From: Kiritimatiellia bacterium
Lineage (GTDB): Bacteria; Verrucomicrobiota; Kiritimatiellia; CAIQIC01; Lenti-01
Assembly (NCBI GenBank): GCA_017540905.1
Contig: JAFYAC010000045.1
Location: forward strand, 1 to 52,341
Length of the DNA stretch: 52,341 nucleotides
Reading direction: 5' to 3'
Shown here in pieces: positions 5,387 to 38,801 of this stretch. The translations under genes and the position numbers were made by a program. The notes under the pieces are model-generated. The model had not been told where the DNA came from. It made no database searches and was given only the letters and a program-made list of their open reading frames with translations. Numbering within the stretch: position 1 is the first letter of the stretch; each line of letters opens with the position of its first letter.

Positions 5387-7123
5387 ATGAGAGTTGCCAT
5401 CAAGACAAAGGAAGTCCAGCCGCTCATGGATGTGGCGCAGAAGCACTCGATGGAGCCGGGGGTCGCAACGGTGGCCGCGGCTTACGTGGCGTTGTTGGCC
5501 GTGCGGCAGGGGGAGGCGTTTCCGTTGCCGGAGTTGGAGGCGGTGCTGTGCCAGGAAAAGAAGCTGCCCAAGTTTGTCCGGGATTTTATCCGCAGGCAGC
5601 TTGCCGAGCATTGGGAGGAGTACCGGCGGGCGGCGGGGGCGTTCGACGGGGAGGCGCTCGTGGATTTCTTCGGCAACGAGGCCATTCAGGTGTTGCAGGC
5701 GGGGCGGCACGACCCTTCGGTGCATCCGGCCATCGATGCGCTGTGCATCGGGTTGCTGGATTTCGGGAAGGGGGACTCGTTCGCGGATCTGCATTGCGGG
5801 AGCGGCCAGTTCGTCCGCAAGGCCTGGTTTGCGCTTTGGGACGCGGCCGGGAGCGATGAAGGGCTGTCGGTGACGGGCTGGTCGCAGGAAGGGGGGCTGG
5901 CTGCACTGGCCTCCATGCTGTGCGACGTGGCCGGGGTCCGGGCCCGCATCCTGGAGCAAAGCCCGTTCGCGCCCTGCACGGAGCGCTATGACCGGATTCT
6001 CCTGGTCCCCCCGTTCGGGATGGGGATGCGGGCGGTCAACATGACCCGGGTGCAGGCGGTGCTGGAGGGGCGGTTCGGGAACTTTCCGCCGCTGAAGCGG
6101 TTGTCGGCGGACTGGGTTTTCGCCGCCCGCGCGGCCAGTCTGCTGCGGCCCGGAGGGCGCGCGGTGGTGGCGGTTCCGTCGACGGCGCTGAACGGGACGC
6201 AGGGGCGTGCCTACCGCGAGTTCCTTGTACGGAACCGGCTGGTGGAGTCGGTGATTTCCCTCCCGCGGGGTTTCCTGCCGGGGACGCGCGTGCCGTTTGC
6301 GCTGGTTGTGCTGGGCGAGGGGGCGGGGGAGATCAAGTTCGTCGACGGCGGGCACTACGCGGAGCGGCGCCCCGACGGGACGGCGGCGCTGGATGCGGAG
6401 GCACTGCTCAGGGACCACCGCGATCTGCACGACTACGAGGCGGTGACCACGAAGGCGATTGACAAGGTGTTCGCGCAGGATTGCAACCTGATGCCGGAGT
6501 TCCACCTGGCGGGCGACCTTTCCTACATCAACGCCCGTCCTCTCGGGGACCTCGTGAAGGACATCCGCCGGGGGGCCAAGCTGGCGCCGGAGGCGTGGGT
6601 GCCCGCCGCCGGGGAGGGGGAGTCGCCGGTCCGGAAAGTGTCGCTCAAGCATTTCGGCGACGGGATGCTCGACGACGAACTGCCGGGCCTTGCCGCCGTC
6701 CCCGCGGGCGCGGAGGAGGCGGTGGCGGAAAGCGGGGATCTGCTGGTTTCGCGGATGGGGCCGCCCTTCAAGATGGCGGTCGTGGGGCCGCACGCCGGCC
6801 GGCTGGTGGCCGACGAGAACGTCTGGATCGTGCGGACGGGGGGCGACCGGACGCTGGCCCACTACCTGCGGGCCTACCTGGAGAGCGCGGCGGGGGCCAA
6901 GTGGCTCGCGCGGATGGCGACCGGGGGCGGCCTGCGAACGGTTTCCGCCAAGAACCTCGCGAAGATTCCCGTGCCGGACGCGGAGCCGGAAAAGGTCGCG
7001 GCCATCGCCGGAGCCCTGGAGGAGGCGACGCGGGAGGCGTGCGAGGCCCGCCGGCGGCTTGCGGCCTCGTTCGCCGCGATGAGAAGGGTTTTCGACACCT
7101 TGGACAAAGACGGAGGACAGTGA
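5387..7123 (+). CDS. Type I methylase-like protein fused to a specificity-type TRD; methyl-transfer motif altered
   Basis: 578 residues in two parts. Residues ~1-330 resemble N6-adenine DNA methylases of type I systems: SAM-binding motif I is present (DLHCGSGQF, 134-142) but the catalytic motif IV reads VPPF (207-210) instead of NPPF/Y, so methyl transfer is doubtful. Residues ~378-570 look like one target-recognition half of an HsdS subunit: INARPLGDLVKDIRRG, a middle GDLLVSRMG segment, NLAKIPVPD and a helical tail. It is followed one base later by hsdM. It may supply an extra recognition domain or regulate the complex. The assignment of the C-terminal part rests on pattern similarity only. 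Confidence 0.65.
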   Translation: MRVAIKTKEVQPLMDVAQKHSMEPGVATVAAAYVALLAVRQGEAFPLPELEAVLCQEKKLPKFVRDFIRRQLAEHWEEYRRAAGAFDGEALVDFFGNEAIQVLQAGRHDPSVHPAIDALCIGLLDFGKGDSFADLHCGSGQFVRKAWFALWDAAGSDEGLSVTGWSQEGGLAALASMLCDVAGVRARILEQSPFAPCTERYDRILLVPPFGMGMRAVNMTRVQAVLEGRFGNFPPLKRLSADWVFAARAASLLRPGGRAVVAVPSTALNGTQGRAYREFLVRNRLVESVISLPRGFLPGTRVPFALVVLGEGAGEIKFVDGGHYAERRPDGTAALDAEALLRDHRDLHDYEAVTTKAIDKVFAQDCNLMPEFHLAGDLSYINARPLGDLVKDIRRGAKLAPEAWVPAAGEGESPVRKVSLKHFGDGMLDDELPGLAAVPAGAEEAVAESGDLLVSRMGPPFKMAVVGPHAGRLVADENVWIVRTGGDRTLAHYLRAYLESAAGAKWLARMATGGGLRTVSAKNLAKIPVPDAEPEKVAAIAGALEEATREACEARRRLAASFAAMRRVFDTLDKDGGQ

Positions 7124-7124
7124 A

Positions 7125-17923: not shown

Positions 17924-20900
17924 ATGGCAACGAACCGCGATGATATTTCTTCCAAGACGCCCCCCGCGCAAGGGGAGGCGGCGGGGACTCCCCACGCGAA
18001 CGTGGTTTCTTCCGAACGCGCTGTGCAGGACCGGGTGGTCGGGCTGATGCGGGAAAGGCTCGGGTACGGGTATTGGGGGAACCTGAAGGGGCAGGACAAC
18101 GGGAACATCAACGCGGCGGTGCTGGAGGGGTTCCTCGCGAAACGGCAGAATCTGACGCCCGCGCAGGCCGGCGGGGTCGTCGCCCGGCTGCGGCAGGCGG
18201 CCGCCTGCCCGTCGAAGGCGGCACTCTACAAGGCGAACAAGGAGGTGTACCGGATGCTGCGGTACCCCGTGCCGGTCCCGACCGAGCCGGGGAAGCCGCA
18301 GAAGCAGGCGTGGCTCGTGGACTGGAAGAAGCCCTCGAACAACGTTTTTTCGATCGCCGAGGAGGTGCGGGTCCCGGCCCAGGGCGGGGACAGCCCCTAC
18401 CGGCAGCCGGACGTGTGCGTGTACGTGAACGGCATCCTGTTCGCGGTCATCGAGCTGAAAAAGGCGACGGTGTCCGTGGCCGACGGCATCCGGCAGAACT
18501 GGCGGAACCAGCAGGATGGGGAGATTCCCGGGTTTTTCTCGACGACGCAGCTGCTGGTGGCCGGGAGCGAGTCGGAGGGCGTCCGGTACGGGACGACGCT
18601 GACGGTGCCGAAGTACTGGGTGGCGTGGAAGGAGCCCTGCGGGACGCCCTGCGAGCCCGGGTTCTTCACGCCGGAGGACGTGAAGAACGAACTGGAGCGG
18701 TCGCTGCTCCAGATGTTCGAGCCCGGGCGGTTCCTGGGGCTGGTGCACGATTCCATCGTGTTCGACGGCGGCGTCAAGAAGATCATGCGGCCCAACCAGG
18801 TGTTCGCGCTGGATGCGGCGAAGCCGCGCGTGTCCCGGAAGGAAAGCGGCATCATCTGGCACACGCAGGGATCGGGGAAGTCGCTGATGATGGTGTGGCT
18901 GGCGCAGTGGATCCGCGAGAACCGGAAGGACGCGCGGGTGGTCATCATCACCGACCGCGACGAGCTGGACCGGCAGATCGCGAACGCGTTCCGCGATGCC
19001 GGGGAGAAGCCCCGGCGGGTGACCAGCGGGGCGGACCTGATCCGGACGCTCGACGGAAGCCGGGACTGGCTGGTGACGACGATCGTCAACAAGTTCGGCC
19101 TCGTTCGGGGAAAGAAGGGGCAGGGGAAGAAACGGTCGGCCATCGACCGGAAGCTGGCGGGGAAGCCGACGGTGGCGCAGTACATGGAGCAGGTGGCGGA
19201 GCAGCTGCCGGCGGGGTTCAAGGCCAAAGGGGACCTGTTCGTGTTCGTGGACGAATGCCACCGGACGCAGGGGGGCGTGTTCAACCGGGCCATGAAGAAA
19301 ATCATGGGGGACGGGGTGATGCTGGTCGGCTTCACGGGCACGCCGCTGCTGCGGGTGGACAAGGGGAAGCTCACGTCGGCGGCGAACTTCGGGCCGTACA
19401 TCCACACGTACAAGTTCGACGAGGCGGTGGCGGACGGGGTGATCCTGGACCTGCGGTACGAGTCGCGGGACGTGGAGCAGACGCTGCGGGAGGACGCGAC
19501 GTTCGACAGGCTCTTCGAGGAATCGACGCGTTCGCTCACGCCGCGCGCGAAGGAGGACCTCAAGGGGCGGTGGGCGAAGATGCAGAACCTGTTTTCCTCG
19601 AAGGAACGCATCGCGCGCATCGTGGCGGACATCTGCAAGGACATGACCCTCAGGCCGGTGCTCAAGAACGGGTGGGGGAACGCGATGCTCGTGTGCGAAA
19701 ACGTGTACCAGGCGTTCCGGTACTACGAGCTGTTCGAGAACCAGACCCCGCTCGCGGGGCACTGCGCGGTCGTGACGAGCTACGAAGGGGAGCCGCCCGA
19801 CCTTTCGCAGGGATATGCCGGGGAGGCGGCGACGGAGGCCGACTACAAGTACAGGATGGCCAAGAAGATGTTCGGGGGGCGGACGGCCAGGGAGTTCGAG
19901 GAGTGGGCCAAGGCCTGCTTCACCGAACAGCCCGCCGCCATGAAGCTGCTGATCGTGGTGGACAAGCTGATCACCGGGTTCGACGCGCCGCCGTGCACGT
20001 ACATCTACATCGACAAGCAGATGGCCAACCACACCCTGTTCCAATCCGTCTGCCGCGTGAACCGGCTGAACGGCGAGCGCAAGGAGTACGGGTACATCGT
20101 GGACTACAAGCACCTGTTCGGGAACATCCAGGGTGCCATCGAGGACTACACGAACGGCGCCTTCTCCGGCTACGACAAGGATGACGTGGCGGGCCTCCTC
20201 AAATGCGACCTGCCCGAGCAGAAGAAATGCCTGGAGGAAGCGCTGGAGCAGTGCCGCGCCCTCGCCGAACCCGTCAAGGCCCCGAAAACCCTCGACGAGT
20301 TCTTCGACTGGTTCTGCTACAACCAGACGGCAACGCCCGCCGGGGAACACGCGGCGGAGCTGGAGCGGAACGCGCAGAAGCGCGAGGACTTCTACCAGGC
20401 CTGCTATGCCGCGGTCCGGGCGTTTTCCGCCATGGCGGTGGACATCGCCAAGGTCTATCCCCAAAAGGAGGCCGATGCCCTCCGCGAAGAGGTCAAGGAC
20501 TTCGACCAGATCCGCGAGGCCATCATGAGGCGTTGCGGGGACTTCGCCGACCTCAGGCAGTTCGATGCTGAGATGCGGGCGCTCCTGGACGACTACGTCA
20601 CGGCGGCGCATGCGACCAAGCTCGGCGGGCTCGACGATTTCTCCTTCCTGGACGTCATCCGGAAAGACGGGAACGGGAAGCCGACGGGCACCGACGAGGA
20701 GGAAACCCGGGCGGCCGGGGGCGAGCGCGGGGTCGCCGAGACCATGGTCGCCAACGTGCGGCGGTACATTTTCCGCAAGCGGGAAACCAACCCGGCGGAG
20801 TTCCGGAAGTTCTCCGAGCGCATCAACCGCCTGCTCGCCGACTACCTGCGGGAGAAATCCGCCTACAAGAAGTTCCTGGAAGGCATCCTGGAGCTCTGCC

Positions 20901-21196
20901 GGGAACTCCGGACGGAAAAGGAGAACCGCGACCCCCGCATCGACTCGGAGGCGAAAAAGAACCTGCTCGACAACCTGGGCGGCGACGTCGAATTGGCCCT
21001 GAAGGTGCACGAAGCCGCCGCCGCGTCCGTCAAGCCGGGCTTCAGGACGAACGCGGTGCGCCGGAAACGGGTTGAACACGCCATCGCGGAAGCGCTGGAA
21101 GGCACCGGTTTCGAGGTGGCGGCCATATACAAAATCGTCGAACACCAGCGGGAGTTCGACGGCGAGTCCCTGGCGGCCGGGACGAAGGGGGCGTAG
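17924..21196 (+). CDS. hsdR: Type I restriction endonuclease/translocase subunit
   Basis: 1090 residues. The N-terminal PD-(D/E)xK nuclease is visible as QPDVCVYVNG followed by FAVIELKK (Asp163, Glu177, Lys179). The SF2 translocase has Walker A HTQGSGKS (313-320), DEAD-box-type VDECHRTQGG (442-451), GFTGTPL, and a later QSVCRVNRLNG block. The C-terminal helical part binds the HsdM/HsdS core. With HsdM and HsdS it cleaves unmodified DNA after ATP-driven translocation. All key residues seem intact, so the system is probably functional. It begins 13 bases after the RAYT stop and is followed immediately by the metallopeptidase gene. Confidence 0.95.
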   Translation: MATNRDDISSKTPPAQGEAAGTPHANVVSSERAVQDRVVGLMRERLGYGYWGNLKGQDNGNINAAVLEGFLAKRQNLTPAQAGGVVARLRQAAACPSKAALYKANKEVYRMLRYPVPVPTEPGKPQKQAWLVDWKKPSNNVFSIAEEVRVPAQGGDSPYRQPDVCVYVNGILFAVIELKKATVSVADGIRQNWRNQQDGEIPGFFSTTQLLVAGSESEGVRYGTTLTVPKYWVAWKEPCGTPCEPGFFTPEDVKNELERSLLQMFEPGRFLGLVHDSIVFDGGVKKIMRPNQVFALDAAKPRVSRKESGIIWHTQGSGKSLMMVWLAQWIRENRKDARVVIITDRDELDRQIANAFRDAGEKPRRVTSGADLIRTLDGSRDWLVTTIVNKFGLVRGKKGQGKKRSAIDRKLAGKPTVAQYMEQVAEQLPAGFKAKGDLFVFVDECHRTQGGVFNRAMKKIMGDGVMLVGFTGTPLLRVDKGKLTSAANFGPYIHTYKFDEAVADGVILDLRYESRDVEQTLREDATFDRLFEESTRSLTPRAKEDLKGRWAKMQNLFSSKERIARIVADICKDMTLRPVLKNGWGNAMLVCENVYQAFRYYELFENQTPLAGHCAVVTSYEGEPPDLSQGYAGEAATEADYKYRMAKKMFGGRTAREFEEWAKACFTEQPAAMKLLIVVDKLITGFDAPPCTYIYIDKQMANHTLFQSVCRVNRLNGERKEYGYIVDYKHLFGNIQGAIEDYTNGAFSGYDKDDVAGLLKCDLPEQKKCLEEALEQCRALAEPVKAPKTLDEFFDWFCYNQTATPAGEHAAELERNAQKREDFYQACYAAVRAFSAMAVDIAKVYPQKEADALREEVKDFDQIREAIMRRCGDFADLRQFDAEMRALLDDYVTAAHATKLGGLDDFSFLDVIRKDGNGKPTGTDEEETRAAGGERGVAETMVANVRRYIFRKRETNPAEFRKFSERINRLLADYLREKSAYKKFLEGILELCRELRTEKENRDPRIDSEAKKNLLDNLGGDVELALKVHEAAAASVKPGFRTNAVRRKRVEHAIAEALEGTGFEVAAIYKIVEHQREFDGESLAAGTKGA

Positions 21197-27768: not shown

Positions 27769-28806
27769 TCAGGACACCCGGTGCAACCCCTCCGGGGTGA
27801 CATGGAGCGCGCACCCACCCGAAACCCTCGCCATCTCCGCAATCTTTGCGTTGAGGAGCAAACTCCCCGCCCGCGTCACCTCCTGATGGCCGGCTGTCAG
27901 CCGGCCTCCTCTCGCGCCTCCCACTCTCCCTCCCCCCGCCCCTCCCAGCCCCAACACCGCCAACCTCCCCTCCGCCAACAGCGGCGTTTCCCGGATATCC
28001 GGCCGATACACCCACCCCAACCCCCGCTCCTTCACCGAGACCATCCGCCCCCCGTTCCCGGACAGGAACCCGAACAACTCCCGCTCCCCCACCGAGAGCA
28101 ACGTCGAAACGAACACCCACCCCTGCCCAATCCCCCTCCTGAACCGCTCCAACAACTCCGCCGGAACCCTCTCCACCCGCCGCGAAACCCGTACCGCGCA
28201 CAACCGCCCCTCCAGCAGCTCCAGCGCCCCGAGCCCCCGCCAGTAATCCCGATCCTCGAGCACGCCCGCCTCCAGCGGCTCCCGTACGTGGCAAGCCGCC
28301 GATGCCCGCCCCGCCGCCCCGCCCCCCGGCCGCGGCAGATGCATCAGCGCCCACTTGAGCGGATTCAGGTCCATGTACGCCTCGACATGCCCGCGGAACT
28401 CCCGTCCCAGGCAAATCCGGTCGTGATACCCCTCCTCCCACCGGATCCCGGCCTCCTTGGCCGCCACCCGCTTGAACCCCGCCATGAACCGCCCCAGCGC
28501 CTTGAGCGGTGCCGCCTCCCCGGCCCGCAGCCTCACCAGCAAATGGACATGGTCCGGCATGACCACATACCGCTCCAACGCCACCGCGGGCACGAACCGC
28601 GGCGTCTCCAGAAGCGCCTTCCGCACCGCATCCCCGGCCTCCGACAGCACCACCCGCGCCCCGCCGTCCCCCACCCATTCCACATGTCCCAACACCGGCA
28701 CCCTCCCCGCGAGCCCCGTCGTCAAAAACAACCTCGCCCCGCGGCCGTAGTCATACCCGTGGAACCGCCGGTAACGCTTGATTGGACCTGCCGCTGCCTT
28801 CTCCAT
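27769..28806 (-). CDS. Second REP-associated tyrosine transposase with C-terminal extension
   Basis: 345 residues from ATG 28806 (alternatives ATG 28818, TTG 28845; no start has a good ribosome site). The Y1 core shows FLTTGLAGRVPVLGHVEW, the HUH-type motif YVVMPDHVHLLVRL, GRFMAGFKRV, and VEAYMDLNPLKW with the likely nucleophilic Tyr. A second part (WVFVSTLLSVGERELFGFLS, then GRMVSVKERGL) parallels the C-terminal extension of the RAYT at 16754, though it is shorter. CTGTCAG-core hairpins lie just upstream (28888) and inside the 3' coding part (27888). The two RAYTs are diverged paralogues, each with its own hairpin type nearby. Confidence 0.75.
   Translation of the reverse strand: MEKAAAGPIKRYRRFHGYDYGRGARLFLTTGLAGRVPVLGHVEWVGDGGARVVLSEAGDAVRKALLETPRFVPAVALERYVVMPDHVHLLVRLRAGEAAPLKALGRFMAGFKRVAAKEAGIRWEEGYHDRICLGREFRGHVEAYMDLNPLKWALMHLPRPGGGAAGRASAACHVREPLEAGVLEDRDYWRGLGALELLEGRLCAVRVSRRVERVPAELLERFRRGIGQGWVFVSTLLSVGERELFGFLSGNGGRMVSVKERGLGWVYRPDIRETPLLAEGRLAVLGLGGAGGGRVGGARGGRLTAGHQEVTRAGSLLLNAKIAEMARVSGGCALHVTPEGLHRVS
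27888..27906. repeat. REP-like hairpin ggccggctgtcagccggcc
   Basis: Perfect 7-bp arms (ggccggc/gccggcc) around a short loop within the 3' end of the second RAYT gene, preceded by tcctgat. It matches the hairpin at 28888, which is preceded by tcctgac. Confidence 0.65.
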
Positions 28807-28887
28807 GTCCGCCCCCATCTTGGAGCTGAACAATCTTCCAGTCAATCCTTTTCCACCCCTCCCCCCTCGCTCTTCCCCCCTCCTGAC

Positions 28888-28906
28888 GGCGGGCTGTCAG
28901 CCCGCC
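28888..28906. repeat. REP-like hairpin ggcgggctgtcagcccgcc
   Basis: Partner of the hairpin at 27888, on the other side of the second RAYT. The shared left flank is tcctga(c/t)gg. Confidence 0.65.
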
Positions 28907-29032
28907 GCTGAACCGCCGGGGGCGGGGCTGGGCCACCGCGTCCCCTCGTCTCTTGCTCCCGCCTGCCCCTCTGCGGGAACTCCTTCGCCACCGATGCCTC
29001 GCCTTCCTTCACGGCGGCGCGTTGGGCCGTCC

Positions 29033-29290
29033 ACCCTTCCTCCTGACGCAGGCCAACCGCCTCCCCCCGCGGTGCAACCGTCGCCCGGAGGGCCGCCTCG
29101 ACCACTGCCACGGGCTGGACCTGATGCCTCTCTGGGGGGCCCGCGAAGCCTCCTGACCCCCTCCGCCATGCCGCTCCGAAAACTGTGTCCTTCCCCCCCC
29201 ATCCGATTCATTTCCAGCTCCAAAAAGAGTTGACGCAACTTCCCGCCTCCTGTAGCTTCACCCCTTGAGATGAACAACCCATTCCAACCC
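29033..29290. repeat. Long dispersed repeat, copy A (promoter-bearing)
   Basis: About 258 bp starting cccttcctcctgacgcagg and ending atgaacaacccattccaaccc. It matches 33703-33966 nearly base for base, and its last ~170 bp match 35540-35710. It contains TTGACG-N17-TAGCTT at 29230-29258, immediately upstream of the small BamE-like gene. Confidence 0.85.
29230..29258 (+). promoter_or_regulatory. Candidate promoter inside repeat copy A
   Basis: TTGACG, 17-bp spacer, TAGCTT. The same 29-bp unit occurs at 33903-33931 and, with one base changed, at 35648-35676, each upstream of a different gene. Confidence 0.45.
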
Positions 29291-29303
29291 GGGAGGAAAA
29301 CCA

Positions 29304-29675
29304 ATGAGCAGATGCTATTCTAAAATAATGCAGGTATTTATTGATACTATATTAATTGCAGTTATTGTTATAGCTTTGCTTGTGCATATCAAATTACCGG
29401 ATGGCATACTGGGTGTGATTCTTCCCGTTTTGTTTTCTGATACGACAAATTATGCGCCGGGATTTCAAGAGCAAGCGTTTGATGATATCTGTATTGGCGA
29501 TGATAAGGACGAAGTTCTAAAAGTATTGGGGAATCCCTTGCAACAAGATGTACGGGATGGGTTGGAAAGGTGGCGGTTTACGGAAAGTAGAGCTGATTCA
29601 CATTACCGCATGCGCCAAATTACTTTTGAAAATGGAATCGTTGTTTCCAAACAATCGTATTATTACATTGATTAG
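29304..29675 (+). CDS. Small membrane-anchored BamE/SmpA-like protein, AT-rich
   Basis: 123 residues. There is one N-terminal transmembrane anchor (FIDTILIAVIVIALLVHI, ~12-29). A soluble domain with a pattern of the SmpA/BamE-like fold follows: FDDICIGDDKDEVLKVLGNP (helix-turn with Gly-Asn-Pro), then RWRFTES and a final strand pair ITFENGIVVSKQS. GGGAGG lies about eight bases before the ATG at 29304. Base composition (about 40% GC) is far below its neighbours, indicating foreign origin. It is flanked upstream by repeat copy A and downstream, eight bases after the stop, by the AATTAAGGGGACAGACCCC element. The role is unknown. Confidence 0.65.
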   Translation: MSRCYSKIMQVFIDTILIAVIVIALLVHIKLPDGILGVILPVLFSDTTNYAPGFQEQAFDDICIGDDKDEVLKVLGNPLQQDVRDGLERWRFTESRADSHYRMRQITFENGIVVSKQSYYYID

Positions 29676-29683
29676 TGGAGTGG

Positions 29684-29824
29684 AATTAAGGGGACAGACC
29701 CCTTAAAAGAATCTTCGTTCCCGTAAAAAACTTTTCCAATCGCTGGAAAACGCGCGAAAGATTTTTCCAATCATTGGAAAAACCGGCCAAAATTTTCCAA
29801 CAATCAGCATTCGGGTCTGGCCCC
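29684..29824. repeat. Composite 3' element: GGGGACAGACCCC plus TTTTCCA palindromes plus GGGTCTGGCCCC
   Basis: ggggacagacccc (29690-29702) is followed by palindromes ttttccaatcgctggaaaa (29732) and ttttccaatcattggaaaa (29763), a half copy (29793), and gggtctggcccc (to 29824). The same order, starting aattaaggggacagacccc, is at 34850-34999. Confidence 0.8.
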
Positions 29825-29928
29825 TTTTCTGCGAGATTGCAGGAAACATTGGCGATTTCTCTTGTTTTCCGCTATTCTGCCGCTTGGATTTGACTTCCCG
29901 CCCGGCTCCTGCCAGACTTGCGCTCGCC

Positions 29929-31548
29929 ATGTTGCCCTCCCCGTACCACCTGCCCGTCCGCCGCGACGGCATCCGCCCCGGCGCCCTCGTCTCGGGCATC
30001 GTTGGCCTGGCCGCCGTCAACATCTTCTTCGTCCTGTTCTTGTTCAGCCTCTTCGCCTCGGCCTCCTCCTCCGCCCCCTCCACCCGCGGCTGGGCCGAAG
30101 TTCCCTGCCGCATCGAATCCTCCTCCGTCGAGCGCCGCCGGGTGGATGACTTTGCCTTCACCGCCGAATACTCCTACTACTGGAACGGCCTCATGCACCG
30201 CGCCGCCGCCCTGGACCGCCCCGGCGGCACCCACCACACCTTCCAGCGCCTCGAAACCCGCATCCCCCTCCTCGAAAAATACGCCCGCGGCACCGACCAC
30301 GTCTGCCTTGTCGATCCCGAGAACGACGACAACGCCGTCCTCCCCGTCGGGGATCCCTTCGGCGGCCGCGCCAATAGGTCCTGGGGCCTCGGGTTGCTGC
30401 TTCCGGCCTTCTTCCTGATTGCGGAGCTGATGGGCGCCCTGGGACTCGTCGAGGCCTTTCCGAAAACCCGCCGTCTCTGGGGCGGCCGCCTCAGAAGGGG
30501 CATCTTGCCCCTGTGCATGACGCTATTCGGCTCGCTGTTCGCGATGGAGGGAGCCGGAATGCTCTCCGATGCCCTGTCCGCGGACCATCCCTCCGGCAGG
30601 GACTTGGTCCCGGTCACCGGGAAAGTCCTGTATACCGGCGTCGCGAGCCACCCGGGCGGCGGCGGGAGTGGGCATTCCAGGACCCTTTACTCCGCCCGCA
30701 TCGGCTACGAATACGATTACCGGGGCAAAACCTACGAAAGCGACCGCGTGGACGGCCTCGCGGGCGAGTACGCGAGCTCCGGCAGCGCCCGCGCCCGCCG
30801 GCTGGCCCACTCCGTCCGGCCCGGCAGCACCGTCAAAGTCTGGGTCCTCCCCTCCGATCCGCGGCGCAGCACCCTGCACCGCTCCGGCGGACCGGACCTC
30901 GACCTGCTCGGTTTCCCCCTCTTCCTGTCCATCGGCCTTGTCATCGCCGGAGCCGGCATCTTCCTGCTGGTCCGGGCGTTGCGGCCGGGCCAGGGCACCG
31001 AAACGGGACGCTGGCCCCTCCGCCGCTCGCGCGGGAACACCCTTTCGTTCGGCGCCTTCGCCCTCTTCTGGAACCTTCTCGCGTGGCCGACCGCCATCGT
31101 GTTCATGTCCGCGCCCGGCCCGCACGACCCCATGATGCGGCTCGTGTGGGCATTCCCCCTCATCGGCGCAGCCGTGGCCGCCGCGTTCGCCGTCGCCCTG
31201 CGGCGCGACCTCCACGCCCCCAAGCTCGCCATGACCCTCTCCCGCTCCGGCGGCACCACCCCGACCCTCGACTGGAGCCTCGACGCCCCGTCCGCCTTCC
31301 ATTGCCTATCCATCCAGCTCGAAGGCCTCGCCCCCGCCGGCAGGAAACAATGCCTCGTCGTCTCCATACCCGTCTGCAAACACGCCGCCCCCGTCCCCGG
31401 CACCCGGCGCGAAACCGTCCACATCCCGCCCCCGTTCGGCGAGGACGAACGATGGCGCCTCGCCGCCACCCTCGAACCCGCCTCCTCCCCCGGCCGCCCC
31501 ATCCGCCTCGAATACCCTATCCCCGACGAAGCCCTCCCCCTCCTTTGA
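29929..31548 (+). CDS. DUF3592-type membrane protein
   Basis: 539 residues from ATG 29929; no clear ribosome site is seen and the longer frame begins with TTG. Transmembrane segments are predicted at ~17-45, ~150-175, ~205-220, ~330-350 and ~380-430. The extracytoplasmic parts carry two copies of a DUF3592-like pattern: VPCRIESSSVERRRVDDFAF then EYSYYWNGL, and VTGKVLYTGV, then ARIGYEYDYRGKTYESDRV with VKVWVLPSDPRRSTL. DUF3592 proteins are membrane proteins of unknown function. Codon use is typical for the window. No operon partner. Confidence 0.6.
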   Translation: MLPSPYHLPVRRDGIRPGALVSGIVGLAAVNIFFVLFLFSLFASASSSAPSTRGWAEVPCRIESSSVERRRVDDFAFTAEYSYYWNGLMHRAAALDRPGGTHHTFQRLETRIPLLEKYARGTDHVCLVDPENDDNAVLPVGDPFGGRANRSWGLGLLLPAFFLIAELMGALGLVEAFPKTRRLWGGRLRRGILPLCMTLFGSLFAMEGAGMLSDALSADHPSGRDLVPVTGKVLYTGVASHPGGGGSGHSRTLYSARIGYEYDYRGKTYESDRVDGLAGEYASSGSARARRLAHSVRPGSTVKVWVLPSDPRRSTLHRSGGPDLDLLGFPLFLSIGLVIAGAGIFLLVRALRPGQGTETGRWPLRRSRGNTLSFGAFALFWNLLAWPTAIVFMSAPGPHDPMMRLVWAFPLIGAAVAAAFAVALRRDLHAPKLAMTLSRSGGTTPTLDWSLDAPSAFHCLSIQLEGLAPAGRKQCLVVSIPVCKHAAPVPGTRRETVHIPPPFGEDERWRLAATLEPASSPGRPIRLEYPIPDEALPLL

Positions 31549-32051
31549 ACCCGCCGCCCACTCTAAAGAGGGCGCAATGCCTGCGCGAGATTATGGAAAA
31601 TGTTGGCTTTTTCGCTGGTTTTCTGCTTTCCTGCCCGCCCCCGGGCGGGACGCCCGCGCCCCCAACGTGCCACCCGCTTTCCCCTGTCCGCGAAGCGGTT
31701 TTCATGGTTTTCAATGTTGGAAATGATCCCGCCCTCCATCCGCCGGGACGACGATGGGGGATGCGGCTTGCAGGCGCGTTGCGGCTTCAGGCTTCGTGCA
31801 CTCGCTTGCCGGTGACGTGTTCGGGGACGAGGGCTCTGGCGGGGTCTGGCCCCTTTTCTGCAGTTTCCCAAAGCGGTGCGCCCTGCGGGCGGGGAGTGGA
31901 AGGGAAGCGGGCGGGTCGCCCGCGCTCCGACAGGAGGGGCGAATCCTTTCCGCTTTGGACGGGCGGGGGCGCCCGTCCTCCCAGTCCTTTTTCCCCTCCC
32001 TCCCGCGTGCCTTCGTTGGGGCGCGACTGGAAAGTCGCCCCCACTATTTGA
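31549..32051. other. Intergenic repeats between converging genes
   Basis: No convincing gene. It holds an element with gcgggacgcccgcgcccc and gtccgcgaagcggttttc-ggttttcaatgt (31630-31720; relatives at 37489, 37860-38010 and, inverted, 51905-51990), ggggtctggcccc at 31841-31853, and a REP hairpin at 32018-32042 next to the mscS stop. Confidence 0.6.
32018..32042. repeat. Single REP hairpin, CTGGAAAG core
   Basis: ggggcgcgactggaaagtcgccccc, nine bases beyond the end of the mscS gene. The strong stem may stop or stabilise that transcript. Confidence 0.65.
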
Positions 32052-33218
32052 TCAGGCTTCGGGTTTTTCCCCGGGTGCGGACGGGGGAGGGGGTTCCGAG
32101 GACCCTTCCTGCAGGAAGATCGTGCTGGTCGGGAAGGCGAACTCCAGGCCGGCTTCGTTGAACCGGCGGAGGACTTCTCCGTTGAACCGACTGCGGGAGG
32201 AACGCATGGTGTACCAGTCGGAAATCCGGAACCAGACGTATCCATCGACGTTCAGAGAAGAAGCGTCGAATTGGAGGAAATCGAACCGGACCTTTTTCCC
32301 CGGCGCCATGTCGCCGGCGAGGTCGCGTCCGATCTCTTCGAGGATTTGCCGGGCCCGTTCGATGTTTTCGGGAGAGGTTTGATAAACCAATCCGAAGCAG
32401 AAGTGTTCCCGCCAGAACAGCCGGTCGCTGTAGTTTTCCACCTGGGAATCGGCAATGATGCGGTTGGGGATGTCGATCAGCCGGCCTTCGAACGCCCGGA
32501 GCCGGACGCTGCGGAATCCGATGCGCTCGACGATGCCCTCGGATTGGTCGATCCGGATCCAGTCGCCCACCTTGAAGAGTTTGCATCCCAGGATGGAAAA
32601 CGCGCCGAAGATGTTCGCCACCGTGTTCTGCGCGGCAAAGGCGATCGCCAGTCCCAGCACGCCGGCGCTGACCAGCAGATGCGTCACGTTCATCATGAAG
32701 ATGTTCTGGAGGATGAAGAAAACCGCAAGGCTCCAGGCGACCAGCCGGATGAGGCTGTGGAGCAGATCCAGCAGCAGTTTCTTGTCCGGGTCGCGCTTGC
32801 GGAGCTGTTCCGTGAGGATTTCCGTCACGCAGCGGACCCCGTGCAGGACCAGGGTCAGCCCCGTGAAGACCAGAAGCGCGCAGAAGACCTTCTCCAGCGC
32901 CAGGTCCATGCGGAGCGGCAGATTCATCATGTCCGCGCTGATGGAGAGCCCCATCCAGAGCACCAGCAGGGACAGCGGGGTCGAGACTACCCGGAGCGTT
33001 TCCGCCGCGTAGGGCCTTTTCCGCCCGAGCAAGGGAACGGCCAGCTTTCTCAGGACCAGGAGCAGGAGCAGGAACAGGACCAGCGAGGCGAGGCCCACCG
33101 CGCAACCGAAGGCGATGTGGTGGCCGTTTTCCAAAAACCACCGCGAACATTCGGAAAGGAAGAAATCCAGCCCGTCCCCCAGGGCGGTCATGCTGAACGG
33201 ATTGACGGTTTTGCTCAT
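32052..33218 (-). CDS. MscS-family mechanosensitive channel
   Basis: 388 residues with AAGGAG seven bases before ATG 33218. Four to five N-terminal transmembrane helices (first ~33-61). The pore-helix/beta-domain signature follows: HLLVSAGVLGLAIAFAAQNT, VANIFGAFSILGCKLFKVGD, then WIRIDQSEGIVERIGFRSVR and GRLIDIPNRIIADSQVENYS. The length and ordering fit YnaI/YbdG-like medium MscS proteins rather than the ~290-residue MscS. It releases ions when membrane tension rises. The C-terminal ~20 residues are proline-rich and variable. Probably a single-gene unit. Confidence 0.92.
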   Translation of the reverse strand: MSKTVNPFSMTALGDGLDFFLSECSRWFLENGHHIAFGCAVGLASLVLFLLLLLVLRKLAVPLLGRKRPYAAETLRVVSTPLSLLVLWMGLSISADMMNLPLRMDLALEKVFCALLVFTGLTLVLHGVRCVTEILTEQLRKRDPDKKLLLDLLHSLIRLVAWSLAVFFILQNIFMMNVTHLLVSAGVLGLAIAFAAQNTVANIFGAFSILGCKLFKVGDWIRIDQSEGIVERIGFRSVRLRAFEGRLIDIPNRIIADSQVENYSDRLFWREHFCFGLVYQTSPENIERARQILEEIGRDLAGDMAPGKKVRFDFLQFDASSLNVDGYVWFRISDWYTMRSSRSRFNGEVLRRFNEAGLEFAFPTSTIFLQEGSSEPPPPSAPGEKPEA

Positions 33219-33334
33219 GGTTCTCCTTCTGCAGGTGGCGGGAAAGGGTCACGCCCCTTTTCCGACGCCCCGCATCCTACCATGCCTCCGCCCGCAGGGA
33301 AAGCCCGCGCCGGCGGGGGCGTTGAAAGCAAGAA

Positions 33335-33490
33335 ACTCCGATTGGTCCGATTCCCTCCGCTACCGCTCCGGGGAGCAAGGTCTTTCGTTTCTTGGAGAAC
33401 GGAAGGACACTCCGATTGTTCCGATGGGCCTGCCGTGCCCGTACAGCGCATGGCCCCGCACCGGCAATCGGACCAATCGGAGTGTCCTTC
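33335..33490. repeat. MITE-like element with ACTCCGATTGGTCCGATT inverted ends
   Basis: The left end 33335-33352 is the exact reverse complement of 33466-33483. An inner arm at 33401-33430 (ggaaggacactccgattg) also pairs with 33463-33490. The ends resemble those of the larger element at 40740-41091. Confidence 0.65.
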
Positions 33491-33681
33491 CGGGGCCGGG
33501 ACATTCCCTATCGATTCTCCTCGTTCCGGCCGGCATTACGGCGGCAAAATCCGGCCACGGCCTTGATGAGCAGCGGGTACAGCGCAATGCAGTAGAGAAC
33601 GAGAATGAAATTGTGCGAAAAATGTCCCCAGTGGCTCCCCAGAAGGCTGTCCAGCGCCCCTCTCCGGAAAAAGGCGAAAAA

Positions 33682-33694
33682 GGGGCCAGACCCC
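33682..33694. repeat. GGGGCCAGACCCC motif
   Basis: Recurrent 13-mer (reverse ggggtctggcccc), located nine bases before repeat copy B. Other sites are 31841, 33990 and 35737 (variant). Confidence 0.55.
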
Positions 33695-33702
33695 CAATCA
33701 GG

Positions 33703-34008
33703 CCCTTCCTCCTGACGCAGGCCAACCGCCTCCCCCCGCGGTTCAACCGCCGCCCGGAGGGACGCCTCGACCACTGCCGCGGACTGGATCTGATGCCTCT
33801 CTGGGGTGCCCGCGAAGCCTCCTGACCCCCTCCGCCATGCCGCTCCGAAAACTGTGTCCTTCCCCCCCCCCCCATCCGATTCATTTCCAGCTCCCAAAAG
33901 AGTTGACGCAACTTCCCGCCTCCTGTAGCTTCACCCCTTGAGATGAACAACCCATTCCAACCCCTGAAATGCTCATTCTTCTTCCCAAAGGGGTCTGGCC
34001 CCGAGTTT
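33703..34008. repeat. Long dispersed repeat, copy B (promoter-bearing)
   Basis: Matches copy A over about 260 bp and copy C (35540) over its last ~215 bp, including the tail ctgaaatgctcattcttcttccc and ggggtctggcccc-gagtttc. It contains TTGACG-N17-TAGCTT at 33903-33931. Confidence 0.85.
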
Positions 34009-34160
34009 CTAAAAAATCGTTACAACGTGGCATATGCAACTCTCCTTGAGGAACAGCAATCTCATTGTCCTCATTTTGCTGGAGAAGATGCATATGGTGT
34101 AGGAGAATGCGGCAATGAAATTTGGACAGGAATAAGGGAATGTCCCTAAGGAAGAGAAAA

Positions 34161-34799
34161 ATGCATAATCTTAATCGATATCACTTTCTTGTTGTTTCTT
34201 TTGTCTCATTCTTCTTGCCAATAGTCCAAGCAGAACCAGTAAGTGCTCCGAATGAATCATTTGAATACTATAACTTTGTTGGTCAAATAAAGATACGCTC
34301 TGTGAATTTTGAAAATGCCTCTGTTTACCGTCAAACAGAAGCAATCCAGTATATGGGCGTTCCTTTGGATGCAGAGGTTTTGGAGGTGTTGAGGAAAACA
34401 GATGGTGTTGATTTGTCAAAATTGCTCGCCCCGGTTAAAAGTGTTGTCAATGGGGTTTGTTATGGGAACCCCGATATAATCGAGGGAAAATATGCTGTTT
34501 CAAATGTTGTAGCCATTGCAGGAAATGTCGTGTCGAACGGGGCCAATTGGTGTGTTGTCGAATGGCTTCTATCGGATGAAGTCTGGAAAAAATACAAGAC
34601 GCAAAAGGAAACCGGTATCATCAAGCACGAAGTCTCGGAAGAAGAACAAGAGTTGGAAAGGTATTTATGGGCAGTCCATAAGTCAGCGGAATTATGGGAA
34701 CAAGTCAAAGAGGGCGAGATTACTTTTGAAGAGTACAAGATATTGGCTGCTCCGTATTCGGAGATACTAGACCATCCAGTTGCCGTAACAATATTTTAG
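34161..34799 (+). CDS. Small secreted protein of unknown function, AT-rich
   Basis: 212 residues from ATG 34161 (GGAAGAG upstream). There is a signal peptide (basic start, then FLVVSFVSFFLPIVQA, cleavage near residue 24 after VQA). The mature part opens with AEPVSAPNESFEYYNF and has a glutamate-rich helical C-terminal half (EVSEEEQELERYLWAV, VKEGEITFEEYKIL). No family recognised. GC is about 42%, far below the chromosome average, indicating horizontal origin. It lies ~150 bp downstream of repeat copy B and is followed after ~50 bp by the GGGGACAGACCCC/TTTTCCA composite element. Confidence 0.6.
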   Translation: MHNLNRYHFLVVSFVSFFLPIVQAEPVSAPNESFEYYNFVGQIKIRSVNFENASVYRQTEAIQYMGVPLDAEVLEVLRKTDGVDLSKLLAPVKSVVNGVCYGNPDIIEGKYAVSNVVAIAGNVVSNGANWCVVEWLLSDEVWKKYKTQKETGIIKHEVSEEEQELERYLWAVHKSAELWEQVKEGEITFEEYKILAAPYSEILDHPVAVTIF

Positions 34800-34849
34800 C
34801 CCGACTTTCCGTATTCGATCCCGTTTTCAACTTTTTTCGGGGGGGGGTG

Positions 34850-35060
34850 AATTAAGGGGACAGACCCCATAAAAGAATCTTCGTTCCTGCAAAAAACTTT
34901 TCCAATCGCTGGAAAACGCGCGAAAAATTTTTCCAATCATTGGAAAAATCGCCCCATATTTTCCAACCATTGGAAAACTTTTTTCCAATCATTGGAAAAC
35001 TGCCGTTTCCCCGATGAGCTACCAGATTGGCCAAAAGCCGGGTGCTTGATGGGGTGGGGG
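34850..35060. repeat. Composite 3' element with four TTTTCCA palindromes
   Basis: aattaaggggacagacccc (34850-34868), aaaagaatcttcgttcc, then four palindromes (34898-34999), then a tail gccgtttccccgatgagctaccagattggcc and ggggtgggggagg. The front matches 29684-29781 and the tail matches 38188-38253. Confidence 0.8.
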
Positions 35061-35061
35061 A

Positions 35062-35315
35062 GGCAAGGTCGACTTCCGCGACTTCATCGTCGGCGTCACC
35101 GTCCGCAAGGAAGTCGACAAAGCCACCGGCATTGAAGACATCGTCCGGAAAACGTCATCATGGGCCAGATGATCCCCGCCGGCACCGGCTTCAGCATGTA
35201 CCGCAACATCAAACTCGTCCCCCTCGCCGAACCCATCCCCGCCGAAGACCTCCTCCCTGACACCCTCCCCACCGTCCCCGCCGAACCCGCCCCCGAGCCC
35301 GCCCCGGGCGCCTGA
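35062..35315 (+). pseudogene. rpoC (RNA polymerase beta' subunit) 3' remnant, deleted and frameshifted
   Basis: Frame 1 reads GKVDFRDFIVGVTVRKEVDK then ATGIEDIV, matching the beta' segment 'V.F.DLV.G.TVREEVDE.TG'. The frame then shifts at ~35147 and continues ENVIMGQMIPAGTGFSMYRN and IKLVPLAEP to a TGA at 35313. ENVIMGxxIPAGTG is the signature near the end of beta'. In an intact beta' these segments lie far apart, so an internal deletion plus frameshift is implied. No start, promoter or rpoB is nearby. It begins exactly at the end of a repeat tail. Confidence 0.75.
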
Positions 35316-35428
35316 CCCGCGCCGCTCCCCAAGGCCGCCCCGCCTCGGGCAGCCTTTTCATTACATTACATTGGTATTTGTATTGTTGTTTGTGGACACT
35401 TGAAGTTTGTGGACAATCTCCCTTGATA

Positions 35429-35452
35429 GGTGCGACTTCCAAGTCGCGCCCC
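35429..35452. repeat. Single REP hairpin (ggtgcgacttccaagtcgcgcccc)
   Basis: Same stem type as the hairpins at 32018 and 38971, with a CTTCCAAG core. Confidence 0.6.
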
Positions 35453-35539
35453 GGCGTCAGGATCGCGTGAGGGATGCTGGAGCCCCTTGTCGCCCCCCCT
35501 CCCACGCCCCTCCCGCAGGGCGCACCGCCCTTCTTCCTT

Positions 35540-35755
35540 ATGCCTCTCTGGGGCGCCCGCGAAGCCTCCTGACCCCATCCGCCATGCCGCTCCGAAAACT
35601 GTGTCCTTCCCCCCCCCCATCCGATTCATTTCCAGCTCCAAAAAGAGTTGACGCAACTTTCCGCCTCCTGTAGCTTCACCCCTTGAGATGAACAACCCAT
35701 TCCAACCCCTGAAATGCTCATTCTTCTTCCCACCAAGGGGGCTGGCCCCGAGTTT
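35540..35755. repeat. Long dispersed repeat, copy C (promoter-bearing, 5' truncated)
   Basis: Begins tatgcctctctggggc, lacking the first ~90 bp of copies A and B. It contains TTGACG-N17-TAGCTT at 35648-35676 and the tail ctgaaatgctcattcttcttccc with ggggctggcccc-gagtttcc. It is directly upstream of the membrane protein gene at 35798. Confidence 0.85.
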
Positions 35756-35797
35756 CCACGCCTTGCCCCTGCCTGCCAAGAGGGGTATGATGCCGCC

Positions 35798-36961
35798 ATG
35801 AAGATCGAAAATGCATCATCGGTCCCCCTCTCTCCCGACGAAAGCAGCTTGGCCCGCGCGGCGGCGTGGATGGGGTGGGGGACGCTGGCGTGGTACGCGG
35901 GTACGCTCTTGGGGTCATGGGTGCTACCGTGGTCGTGGAGGTGCGCGCTGGGCGATGCGGGGGACTCGGCCGTCGGGCGGTGGTTGCTGCCGCTCGTCCA
36001 GATGGGGGTCGTTTTCGCCGGGCCTTGCCTGGTGGGGTACGCCGCGCGGCGGTGGCGGCGCGAGGGCGGCGGCCCGTTCCGCGGGCGGGGACGTCTGGCC
36101 TTGGTGTCGCTGGCGATTGGCGCGGCCGCCATTGTGCTGGGGCACTGGTCGGGATGGGTAGGGGATTGGTGCTTCTGGTTGGGCGCGGTCCTTGCCTGGA
36201 TGGACTTCGGTGGGGCGGTCCGCAAGGCCCATCCCCGCGCGGTGGCCCGGTGCGTGGCGGGCGGCATCCTCCTGATGCTGGCCGCCATCCCGGACATCAT
36301 CCGCCACCGCCGGGCGATGGGGTGTATGGACGGCGCCGTGTTGCTGCTGTCGGCTGCCGGAACATGGGTAGCCCTCTCGGGGTTCGCGTGGATTCCGGGA
36401 CCGGGGCGGCGGCGCTGGGCGTCTTGGGCGGCCGCCGTGCTGGTGTTGGCCGTGGTGGTGGAAGCGGTGGCGGAGTGGGGGCCGACGGCCCTCCTGCGTC
36501 GGATCAACGACGGGTTGCGCGACCGCCTGCTGGCCCGCTGCGAGTCGGCACCCGAAGGGGAGGCGCCCGCCGCCTGGTGCGTGCTGGCGGCCGGGGAAAT
36601 CCGCCAGGAACGGAGGGTTTGGCACACGGAAGGGCCGTCCGGCCTCCTGGCGGCGTTTGCCGGCGACATGCTGTGCCTTTGGCCGTCTGCGGACGCCGCG
36701 ACGCCTCCCGCGCGCTATTGGTACCAGTACGACCGCATGGCGCATCTGCTCCGGTGGAAGCACGACCTCCGCGTCCTGCACGACCTGTCGGCGATGCCGC
36801 CCGGACCCGACCGCGATGCGGCCTGGGCCGCCGGCATGGATGCGGCCAACCGGCATTTCCCTTTGGCATCCGGGTTCTTCCAACCCCGAGGCGCCACCCG
36901 CGAAGTCTGGATCCTCTGGAAAGAGGAAGCCGACGCCGCGGCCGCAGCGTCCGGGACGTGA
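35798..36961 (+). CDS. Polytopic membrane protein, unknown function
   Basis: 387 residues from ATG 35798 (MKIENASSVPLSPDE; GAGGGG upstream). About six or seven hydrophobic segments lie in the first ~235 residues (e.g. GWGTLAWYAGTLLGSWVLPW, LALVSLAIGAAAIVLGHW, AVLVLAVVVEAVAEWGP). A soluble C-terminal domain of ~150 residues follows, rich in Trp and Arg (YWYQYDRMAHLLRWKHDLRV). No family recognised. Composition matches the chromosome (GC-rich), unlike the other two genes that follow copies of the same repeat. Confidence 0.65.
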   Translation: MKIENASSVPLSPDESSLARAAAWMGWGTLAWYAGTLLGSWVLPWSWRCALGDAGDSAVGRWLLPLVQMGVVFAGPCLVGYAARRWRREGGGPFRGRGRLALVSLAIGAAAIVLGHWSGWVGDWCFWLGAVLAWMDFGGAVRKAHPRAVARCVAGGILLMLAAIPDIIRHRRAMGCMDGAVLLLSAAGTWVALSGFAWIPGPGRRRWASWAAAVLVLAVVVEAVAEWGPTALLRRINDGLRDRLLARCESAPEGEAPAAWCVLAAGEIRQERRVWHTEGPSGLLAAFAGDMLCLWPSADAATPPARYWYQYDRMAHLLRWKHDLRVLHDLSAMPPGPDRDAAWAAGMDAANRHFPLASGFFQPRGATREVWILWKEEADAAAAASGT

Positions 36962-37034
36962 GTCCCAGCGGCGTCAGTTTTTCCAACCATTGGAGTTGTC
37001 AGGCGAAGGGAAAAAAGGAAAAAAGGGGCAGACC
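36962..37034. repeat. Degenerate TTTTCCA palindrome and GGGGCAGACCC motif
   Basis: tttttccaaccattgga (36977-36993) and ggggcagaccc (37025-37035) follow the membrane protein stop, in the same place relative to the gene as the composite elements at 29684 and 34850, but in reversed order. Confidence 0.5.
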
Positions 37035-37337
37035 CGAATGCCGGTCAGATAAGGACTATCCCTTTGGGAAAGGGCCTGCGGCGCCAAACACGGAGGAAAC
37101 GGAGGAACGGAGACACGGAGCGATTTTGGACGGGGAGTTTGTTGGAGGAGCCTTCGCACGTGGAAAACGTCGGACAAACGCTTGACAGGGACGTTTTTGG
37201 GAGCGCGAAGCTCCTCCCTGCAAAATCTCCGTGTCTCCTTTCTCCGCGCGCTCCGTGTTTGGCGCCGCAGGCAGAGGGGAAAAGAGGACGAACGTACTTG
37301 ATCGATGTGTGAACGAAGCTTATCTGACCGGCATTCG
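37035..37337. mobile_element. MITE-like element, perfect 19-bp TIRs, nested inverted repeats
   Basis: cgaatgccggtcagataag (37035-37053) is repeated inverted and perfect at 37319-37337. Inside, cctgcggcgccaaacacggag and further ACGGAG units (37075-37123) are inverted at 37225-37273. Copies of ggggcagaccc flank both ends (37025 and 37337), like a target duplication. A diverged copy with its core inverted is at 43235-43497. No transposase is encoded. Confidence 0.75.
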
Positions 37338-38393: not shown

Positions 38394-38801
38394 TCACTCC
38401 ACTGCCTTGTATTCGGGGTTGAAGACGAAGCGGCCGTGGGTCTGGACGTGTTCGAGGCGTTTCCCGTTGTCCTTGATGTCGCCGAAGACGGTGCCGTCAT
38501 CGAACCGCTGGAGGCGGACGCGGCCGTTCGCCGGATTGAGCGAAAGCGTGGCGCCGAGCGTCCCCGCAAACAGATCGTTCGCCTCCAGGAGCGTCTTGTA
38601 CAGCGCCTCGCGGCCCTCCGGCGGCGCTTCGCCCAGGTCGGCCGTCGCGAGCAGCACGCCGCGGCGGTCGAAGCCCTGGAGGAGGATGTCGATGCGGTCG
38701 CCCTCCGCCGCGCCCAGCGATATCGCGCAGAGGTCGTTCTCGATCTCGATCTCCGCGCCCAGTTCCTTGGCGAGCGTCCCTATGAAATCCTTGAAACTCA
38801 T
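38394..38801 (-). CDS. CesT-like type III secretion chaperone
   Basis: 135 residues, acidic, no signal peptide. Typical small secretion-chaperone layout: an N-terminal helix (SFKDFIGTLAKELGAEIE), strands (LCAISL, RIDILLQGF, VLLATADLGEAPPEG), then a helix and core ALYKTLLEANDLFAGTLGAT and a LSLNPANGRVRLQRF hairpin. CesT-family dimers bind the N-terminal part of effectors and keep them export-ready. It shares ADLGExPPEGxExL and LEANxLFxGTxGATLxL with the protein at 45030. No effector gene is adjacent; the flanks are repeats. AAGGA lies ten bases before ATG 38801. Confidence 0.75.
   Translation of the reverse strand: MSFKDFIGTLAKELGAEIEIENDLCAISLGAAEGDRIDILLQGFDRRGVLLATADLGEAPPEGREALYKTLLEANDLFAGTLGATLSLNPANGRVRLQRFDDGTVFGDIKDNGKRLEHVQTHGRFVFNPEYKAVE

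Follow-up and report, generated by a model that had tools for sequence, protein, structure and literature searches.

In integrons, individual genes that share their ends are kept behind one promoter, and an integrase and attC sites are characteristic of these systems. Recombinase-associated acquired interbacterial defence (rAID) clusters are known from Bacteroidales. Transposases of the RAYT type are often called domesticated. The route by which bacteria gather orphan immunity genes into stacks has yet to be explained. Here we describe a DNA stretch of 52,341 nucleotides from a Kiritimatiellia bacterium (contig JAFYAC010000045.1; "the window" means this whole stretch), in which copies of one repeat, the 5′ element, precede three genes starting at positions 29304, 34161 and 35798. 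Among the described systems, rAID clusters are nearest in design and the immunity arrays of Vibrio are nearest in process. In the part of the rAID preprint available to us, a recombinase gene is followed by co-oriented short genes with a conserved intergenic motif, and the route by which such systems acquire genes is described as not yet clear (PMC12247911). The locus in the window has the same design, with the recombinase gene mostly reduced to its tail. However, a tyrosine recombinase stands at the head of rAID clusters, whereas the tail here is that of a RAYT, a HuH Y1 transposase. Moreover, the arrays here comprise one to three genes and belong to another phylum, and their protective role is a predicted one. 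According to the available part of the report on Vibrio cholerae, its immunity arrays recombine without specific integration sites and without an integrase, and the authors compare them with integrons (PMC5361080). As in such orphan immunity of type VI secretion and Rhs systems, immunity-like genes lie here beside displaced toxin modules, for example the orphan RHS core on contig C88 of the window genome. In contrast to V. cholerae, the repeat ends here are fixed.

Pairs of a RAYT and its repetitive extragenic palindromes (REPs), called REPtrons, are similar in that a Y1 transposase with HuH and NPVRAG motifs has hairpins both beside its gene and dispersed. However, about 20 motif copies are present here (23 exact copies in the window genome), as compared with more than 100 in the available part of the REPtron report (PMC2817692), and a promoter-like unit and a passenger gene stand behind the RAYT tail here. 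REPs on both sides of a RAYT gene were found only on contig C66 of a relative, G002, and no GT(A/G)G head (GTAG or GTGG) was seen by eye before the listed hairpins. As in integrons, the genes are single, share their ends, follow a common promoter-like unit and are stacked in an array. In contrast, the recombination signals are of another kind, and no integrase or attC site was noticed in the window (Pfam scan of its proteins; no search with IntI or attC models was made). A classification as an integron was given up, since the 5′ element turned out to derive from a transposase tail. The arrangement is probably not an integron. Among the open-licence literature matches listed (titles and starts of abstracts), none linked RAYT or REP to Rhs or immunity genes, although PMC3390384 and PMC6869823 contain part of these terms, and the letters of the hairpin motif matched only papers that were unrelated by title.

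The window is contig C68 of genome G000 (3.5 Mb, 84% complete, 178 contigs). It was compared with two relatives from the same genus, G001 (RUG11196) and G002 (Kiritimatiellae bacterium RGIG6649, sheep rumen), and its host is probably a rumen Kiritimatiellae. All genomes analyzed are metagenome-assembled genomes (MAGs), and most loci used for motif and pattern comparisons had been picked because they bear the motif. We propose, with a probability of about 50%, that this genus keeps short orphan immunity-like genes as exchangeable modules with fixed ends, which recombine at repeats. The short genes would be leftovers of polymorphic-toxin systems (RHS and TSP3-repeat). The upstream end of a module consists of a RAYT 3′ end with a promoter-like unit and a REP-like hairpin; at the downstream end, another hairpin is joined to an element of TTTTCCA palindromes, which also closes RHS toxin/immunity modules. 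Recombination at repeats, either homologous or through short homology at hairpins, would account for the gain and loss of modules and for their assembly into small arrays. A gene that has lost its own operon would be expressed from the upstream piece. The relevant features of the window are as follows.

27769..28845, minus strand: distant RAYT/Y1-transposase-like open reading frame (ORF), other than the RAYT of the 5′ element (NF047646, E 1.9e-8, 34.3 bits, cut-off 80)
28845..29153, plus strand: remnant of a RAYT C-terminus, aligned to residues 238-341 of the query at 70% identity and with one internal stop
29034..29290, plus strand: 5′ element copy A, consisting of RAYT tail, downstream region and promoter-like unit, without hairpin end
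29230..29258 (copy A), near 33903 (copy B) and near 35648 (copy C), plus strand: predicted promoter-like unit TTGACG-N17-TAGCTT
29304..29675, plus strand: passenger gene 1, P0002 (123 residues, GC 0.38, C-terminal half weakly BamE-like)
29687..29804, plus strand: 3′ element of gene 29304, with hairpin TTAAGGGGACAGACCCCTTAA (core 29690-29702) and then TTTTCCA palindromes
31841..31853, no strand assigned: hairpin GGGGTCTGGCCCC, left edge of the block of about 31863-35535 that is not at that place in G002
33682..33694, no strand assigned: hairpin GGGGCCAGACCCC, just 5′ of copy B
33703..34009, plus strand: 5′ element copy B, closing in GGGGTCTGGCCCC-GAGTTTC
34161..34799, open frame from 34122, plus strand: passenger gene 2, P0003 (GC 0.41, secreted-looking)
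34853..35063, plus strand: 3′ element of gene 34161, with hairpin core 34856-34868 and then four TTTTCCA palindromes
35537..35756, plus strand: 5′ element copy C, 5′-truncated, closing in GGGGGCTGGCCCC-GAGTTTC
35798..36961, plus strand: passenger gene 3, P0004 (387 residues, GC 0.72, membrane-like)
37036..37336, no strand assigned: IS4-like miniature inverted-repeat transposable element (MITE) with ends GAATGCCGGTCAGATAAG and its inverse, lying in a GGGGCAGACCC hairpin site between direct repeats of 11 bp

The original prediction, made from the letters of the window, had placed three copies of one repeat before the three genes. These copies (29034-29290, 33703-33990 and 35537-35732) are 95-100% identical with E values of 3e-89 or better, which is far beyond chance, and TTGACG-N17-TAGCTT is present in every copy, as had been claimed. 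The hairpin end that it assigned to the last two 5′ elements was also found (GGGGTCTGGCCCC at 33990 in copy B and GGGGGCTGGCCCC at 35737 in copy C; copy A is without it), and two of the genes are indeed AT-rich as compared with the window (GC 0.63). In contrast, a reading of the repeats as dedicated cassette ends was not supported: part of the motif sites are MITE ends, the TTTTCCA sequence is dispersed, and the 5′ element was recognized as the 3′ part of a transposase gene of the RAYT type (Y1, HuH), together with about 185 bp further downstream in which the promoter-like unit and a REP-like hairpin lie. This follows from G002:C66, where the same sequence forms the 3′ end of a complete RAYT gene (341 residues), and from tail-only copies in G000 and G002. 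The C66 protein matches Y1_Tnp (33.7 bits, cut-off 23) and, below the cut-off of 80, NF047646 (52.8 bits); the HuH motif (HFH) and NPVRAG can be read from its sequence. In a protein search, the tail-only copies in G000 corresponded to residues 238-341, 260-341 and 301-341, those in G002 lay on C35 and C85, and full genes were found in G002 and relatives. Only in G002 was a full-length RAYT of this kind seen beside a module. The window genome has a fourth strong copy of the 5′ element at C125:2388, and a fifth match is merely 36 bp long. Among the 57 genomes searched, strong copies were confined to this genus; the matches in G004 and G049 span 30-47 bp.

The right end of the 5′ element is exact. 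In six of nine copies it is identical, with (G/T)AGTTTC seven bases past GGGGxCTGGCCCC, and five unrelated passengers start there. Past this end, 6-11 of the first 35 bases are identical in 14 of 15 pairs; the exceptional pair (window copy C and G002:C35; 34 of 35 identical) is orthologous. The three copies without the shared end are window copy A, which ends earlier, G001:C236, which has diverged, and G002:C66. In G001:C236 the RAYT tail is missing but the promoter-like unit and the leader are present, and G001:C89 has the unit by itself. A tight pattern of the unit gave ten distinct matches in 48 loci, the majority chosen for bearing the motif, and all ten lie in module contexts. Judging from its letters, the unit may be an active promoter. 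Right after it, a short leader frame starting with MNNPFQP runs through the hairpin in most copies (29270-29290, 33943-34009 and 35688-35756 in the window).

The hairpin motif GGGGNCAGACCC is more frequent than a reversed-pattern control (23 versus 4 sites in G000, 24 versus 1 in G002 and 12 versus 4 in G001). The 3′ element starts where (A)TTAA meets GGGGACAGACCCC, and it leads into TTTTCCA palindromes after genes 29304 and 34161. The predicted presence of both the hairpin motif and TTTTCCA after each gene did not extend to gene 35798, where a half-palindrome comes first (36980) and is followed by GGGGCAGACCC, which contains the 301-bp MITE. The same 3′ element closes RHS toxin/immunity modules on G000:C88 and G001:C127. 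Five of the ten 3′-element instances compared share the continuation TTAAAAGAATCTTCGTTCC up to TTTTCCA-type sequence, namely those of genes 29304 and 34161, of the RHS module on G000:C88, of the first RHS module on G001:C127 and at the start of G002:C35. A sixth instance, the second copy on G001:C127, is interrupted by the contig end, and the other four continue differently. On G002:C66, an RHS gene is followed by a small AT-rich gene and hairpins, then by the RAYT, and next comes an AT-rich gene with a hairpin on either side. Fixed, readable ends common to RHS modules and orphan genes would permit a direct test of acquisition and would open a possible part in gene exchange to RAYT transposases.

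Genomes of the same genus differ at these ends. From the hairpin onward, 29687-31862 of the window matches G002:C35 at 99%, and the preceding DNA differs: in G002 the site of gene 29304 is occupied by other DNA, and the match resumes at 29687. The left side of the locus is found on G002:C85, where a different gene starts after the 5′ element; synteny with the window suggests that C85 and C35 are neighbours. In G002, the block 31863-35535 with gene 34161 and an MscS-like gene is missing from the corresponding place, and the alignment picks up again at 35536. The searches for lost blocks scored 40 of 726 and 40 of 803 candidates, and absence is claimed for the homologous place only. The protein search with P0003 gave nothing in G002 and, in G001, a relative at 45%. 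Contig G000:C125 carries three co-oriented genes with GGGGCCAGACCCGAATGCC as a separator twice, whereas the loci in the window hold one gene each. G001:C99 carries genes 2 and 3 of this array together with their 3′ element (98% over 2.2 kb), followed by other DNA downstream. In G001:C99, the 5′ element is joined directly to gene 2, within its signal-peptide region. Therefore, gene 1 of the array is absent there.

We compared the positions of block ends with the motif (up to one mismatch), using 54 ends internal to both loci in three genomes and 2000 random draws. Twenty-two of the 54 ends lay within 15 bp of a motif (random mean 1.5, maximum 6), and 10 of 33 did so when the 5′-element ends were removed (mean 0.94, maximum 5). 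Another run of the test also gave 22, with a random maximum of 8. No block end lay near the reversed control motif, which is rare in these loci (6 sites versus 90). Because the loci were selected for the motif and the pairs are not independent, this concentration is support, short of proof. Collinear conservation across a hairpin exists between loci L043 and L064.

The AT-richer passengers are read as orphan immunity-like genes, and their neighbourhood suggests an immunity function. In G003, G004 and G279, the P0006/P0007 family (the two proteins are related, with 29% identity) stands 3′ of a C-terminal domain that is conserved and toxin-like, and in G003 this domain is fused to TSP3 repeats. 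Outside the genus, the toxin-like domain lies directly upstream at three of seven strong places of this family. Two relatives of P0003 in G011 stand behind an AT-rich ORF that runs off the contig, contains HExxH and matches DUF922 weakly; an ISL3-type transposase gene (L240:2128-3399) lies close to these two relatives. An orphan RHS core on G000:C88 has its own tip and a small gene. Directly past the hairpin of the main RHS module, L041:4921-6930 and 7066-7449 comprise this orphan core, an AT-rich tip with HExxH and the small gene. A further passenger, on G001:C89, is an ankyrin-repeat gene.

Several results weigh against our reading. None of the window passengers exceeds a Pfam or NCBIfam cut-off or matches a curated immunity family. 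P0004 is GC-rich and is kept at the same place in G002 (98.5% DNA identity), and P0005-P0007 are only mildly AT-rich (GC 0.52-0.56). At four of the seven strong places outside the genus, the P0006/P0007 family has no toxin-like partner directly upstream, and, among the relatives of P0003 (G011, G000:C138 and G001:C89), the partner context was read in G011. Two of six RHS-core matches (G000:C149 and C120) are without a downstream hairpin, and those on C66 and at the C88 orphan are degenerate forms. An RHS link as a general rule is therefore limited, since in the nine loci viewed the hairpin of genus g94 also lies outside RHS context. Most hairpin sites (39 of 59) are without an AT-rich gene, some block ends, for example 35536, lie away from hairpins, and the 84% complete window genome yielded RAYTs of the 5′-element kind as tails only in the protein search.

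Some of these results would fit a rather unlikely alternative without any module system, in which the intergenic regions are simply littered with REP-like palindromes, MITEs and remnants of transposases, and repeat rearrangement together with foreign AT-rich genes mimics cassettes by chance. The hairpins without AT-rich genes, the genome-wide TTTTCCA family, the plain intergenic hairpin in g94 and the collinearity between L043 and L064 speak for it. Weighing against it are the exact right end of the 5′ element, which recurs before five unrelated passengers, the 3′ element shared with RHS modules, and the hairpins that separate the genes of an array. The original prediction had named repeats at random positions without bracketed genes as evidence against a cassette system; TTTTCCA is dispersed through the genome, and most hairpins bracket no AT-rich gene. 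It had likewise named loci fixed in all relatives, and gene 35798 is conserved in G002, whereas the sites of 29304 and 34161 differ there. What remains of the predicted cassette-like system is different genes between the same ends, differences within the genus at these ends and the C125 array. A recombinase that moves the genes would be hypothetical. An artefact of MAG assembly, with chimeric joins at repeats, is barely credible: the three genomes are fragmented and contigs G002:C85, G002:C35 and G001:C99 end at these sites, but the arrangement lies within a 52-kb contig and the array is 98% identical in two separate assemblies.

As to the mechanism of the proposed modules, the exchange is probably recombination at shared repeats, because the exchange of RHS tips is commonly explained in this way and the block end at 35536 is not at a hairpin. 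Catalysis by a RAYT is possible. The stronger form, in which the RAYT is the cassette recombinase, nicks REP hairpins on single-stranded DNA and, as an HuH counterpart of the integron, captures and stacks hairpin-bounded immunity genes and expresses them behind the promoter in its own 3′ end, seems improbable. It would account for the array behind a RAYT tail and for the intact RAYT on G002:C66, which has REPs on both sides and then an AT-rich gene closed by a REP. A hairpin (up to one mismatch) lies within about 130 bp 5′ of the start codon in four of eight genes of the RAYT family, and, in the available part of one report, E. coli TnpAREP cleaves beside REP and transfers strands in vitro (PMC8266576). 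Nevertheless, neither circular or excised forms nor a site cleanly emptied of its passenger module were seen, the hairpins, as read by eye, are without the GT(A/G)G head, the block of gene 34161 ends inside the 5′ element and not at a hairpin, and only RAYT tails were found in the 84% complete window genome. That IS4-family elements targeting the hairpin carried or trapped the genes is very improbable. A DDE_Tnp_1 element with GAATGCCG ends lies at such a hairpin in L174, MITEs with these ends lie inside hairpins (window 37036 and L050), and two separators of the C125 array read GGGGCCAGACCC-GAATGCC. However, such ends are missing from modules 29304 and 34161, only one of the two ends is present in the separators, and the flanks in L174 are inverted, not direct, repeats.

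The GGGGNCAGACCC-GAATGCCG sites mark the ends of IS4-like elements. The window MITE has 18-bp ends, and related ends surround the DDE_Tnp_1 gene in L174. MITEs with GAATGCCG-type ends are present in the window, L050, L167, L166 and L177, and 11-bp direct repeats flank the window and L050 copies. In G002, the window MITE is absent and a single GGGGCAGACCCC represents the empty site. Treating all GGGGNCAGACCC sites as one class was rejected, since part of them (GGGGNCAGACCC-GAATGCC) are IS4-type MITE ends. The TTTTCCA palindrome was also rejected as a cassette-specific end: G000 holds at least 91 matches (40 of 177 candidates scored), and therefore the element is not specific to the window genes. 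A flank below 50% GC was found at 20 of 59 exact motif sites (background 11.9%); thus, AT-rich cassettes are missing from the majority of sites. The nine loci viewed in genus g94 have the same hairpin in ordinary intergenic sequence, without RHS context. The exact string ATTAAGGGGACAGACCCC occurs in 6 of 346 genomes and in two genera. In the other genus of the class it is plain intergenic (G285:C132, C118 and C81, G286, G292 and G295; L198-L208).

Other observations concern neighbouring sequences. P0002 matches Pfam BamE below the cut-off (E 0.0048, 17.1 bits, cut-off 23.2), and single-sequence structure predictions of P0002 and P0003 were of low confidence (mean pLDDT 48.7 and 46.2). The distant transposase-like ORF at 27769..28845 matches Y1_Tnp below the cut-off (E 0.078), and a HuH-like motif, PDHVHLL, was read by eye. 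On G000:C88, the small gene after the RHS gene reads into the hairpin, and on G001:C89 an open frame crosses a hairpin. Frames that stay open in-frame across a hairpin, as if pieces had been joined, were seen at L067:3632-4615 and L041:4491-4868. Contigs C125 and C83 start with the last 100 bases of C88 (L006:1-100, L007:1-100 and L041:7822-7921; C125 and C88 are identical there). Therefore, the RHS region of C88 may continue into C125 or C83. A TTTTCCA element followed by the same fragment, by eye an rpoC-like gene end, is found at 34898-35417 of the window and at L006:713-1227, and related sequence is split in G002:C12 (L052). Elsewhere in the window, Pfam matches indicate a Type I restriction R subunit (17924-21196) and a CesT-like chaperone ORF (38394-38801).

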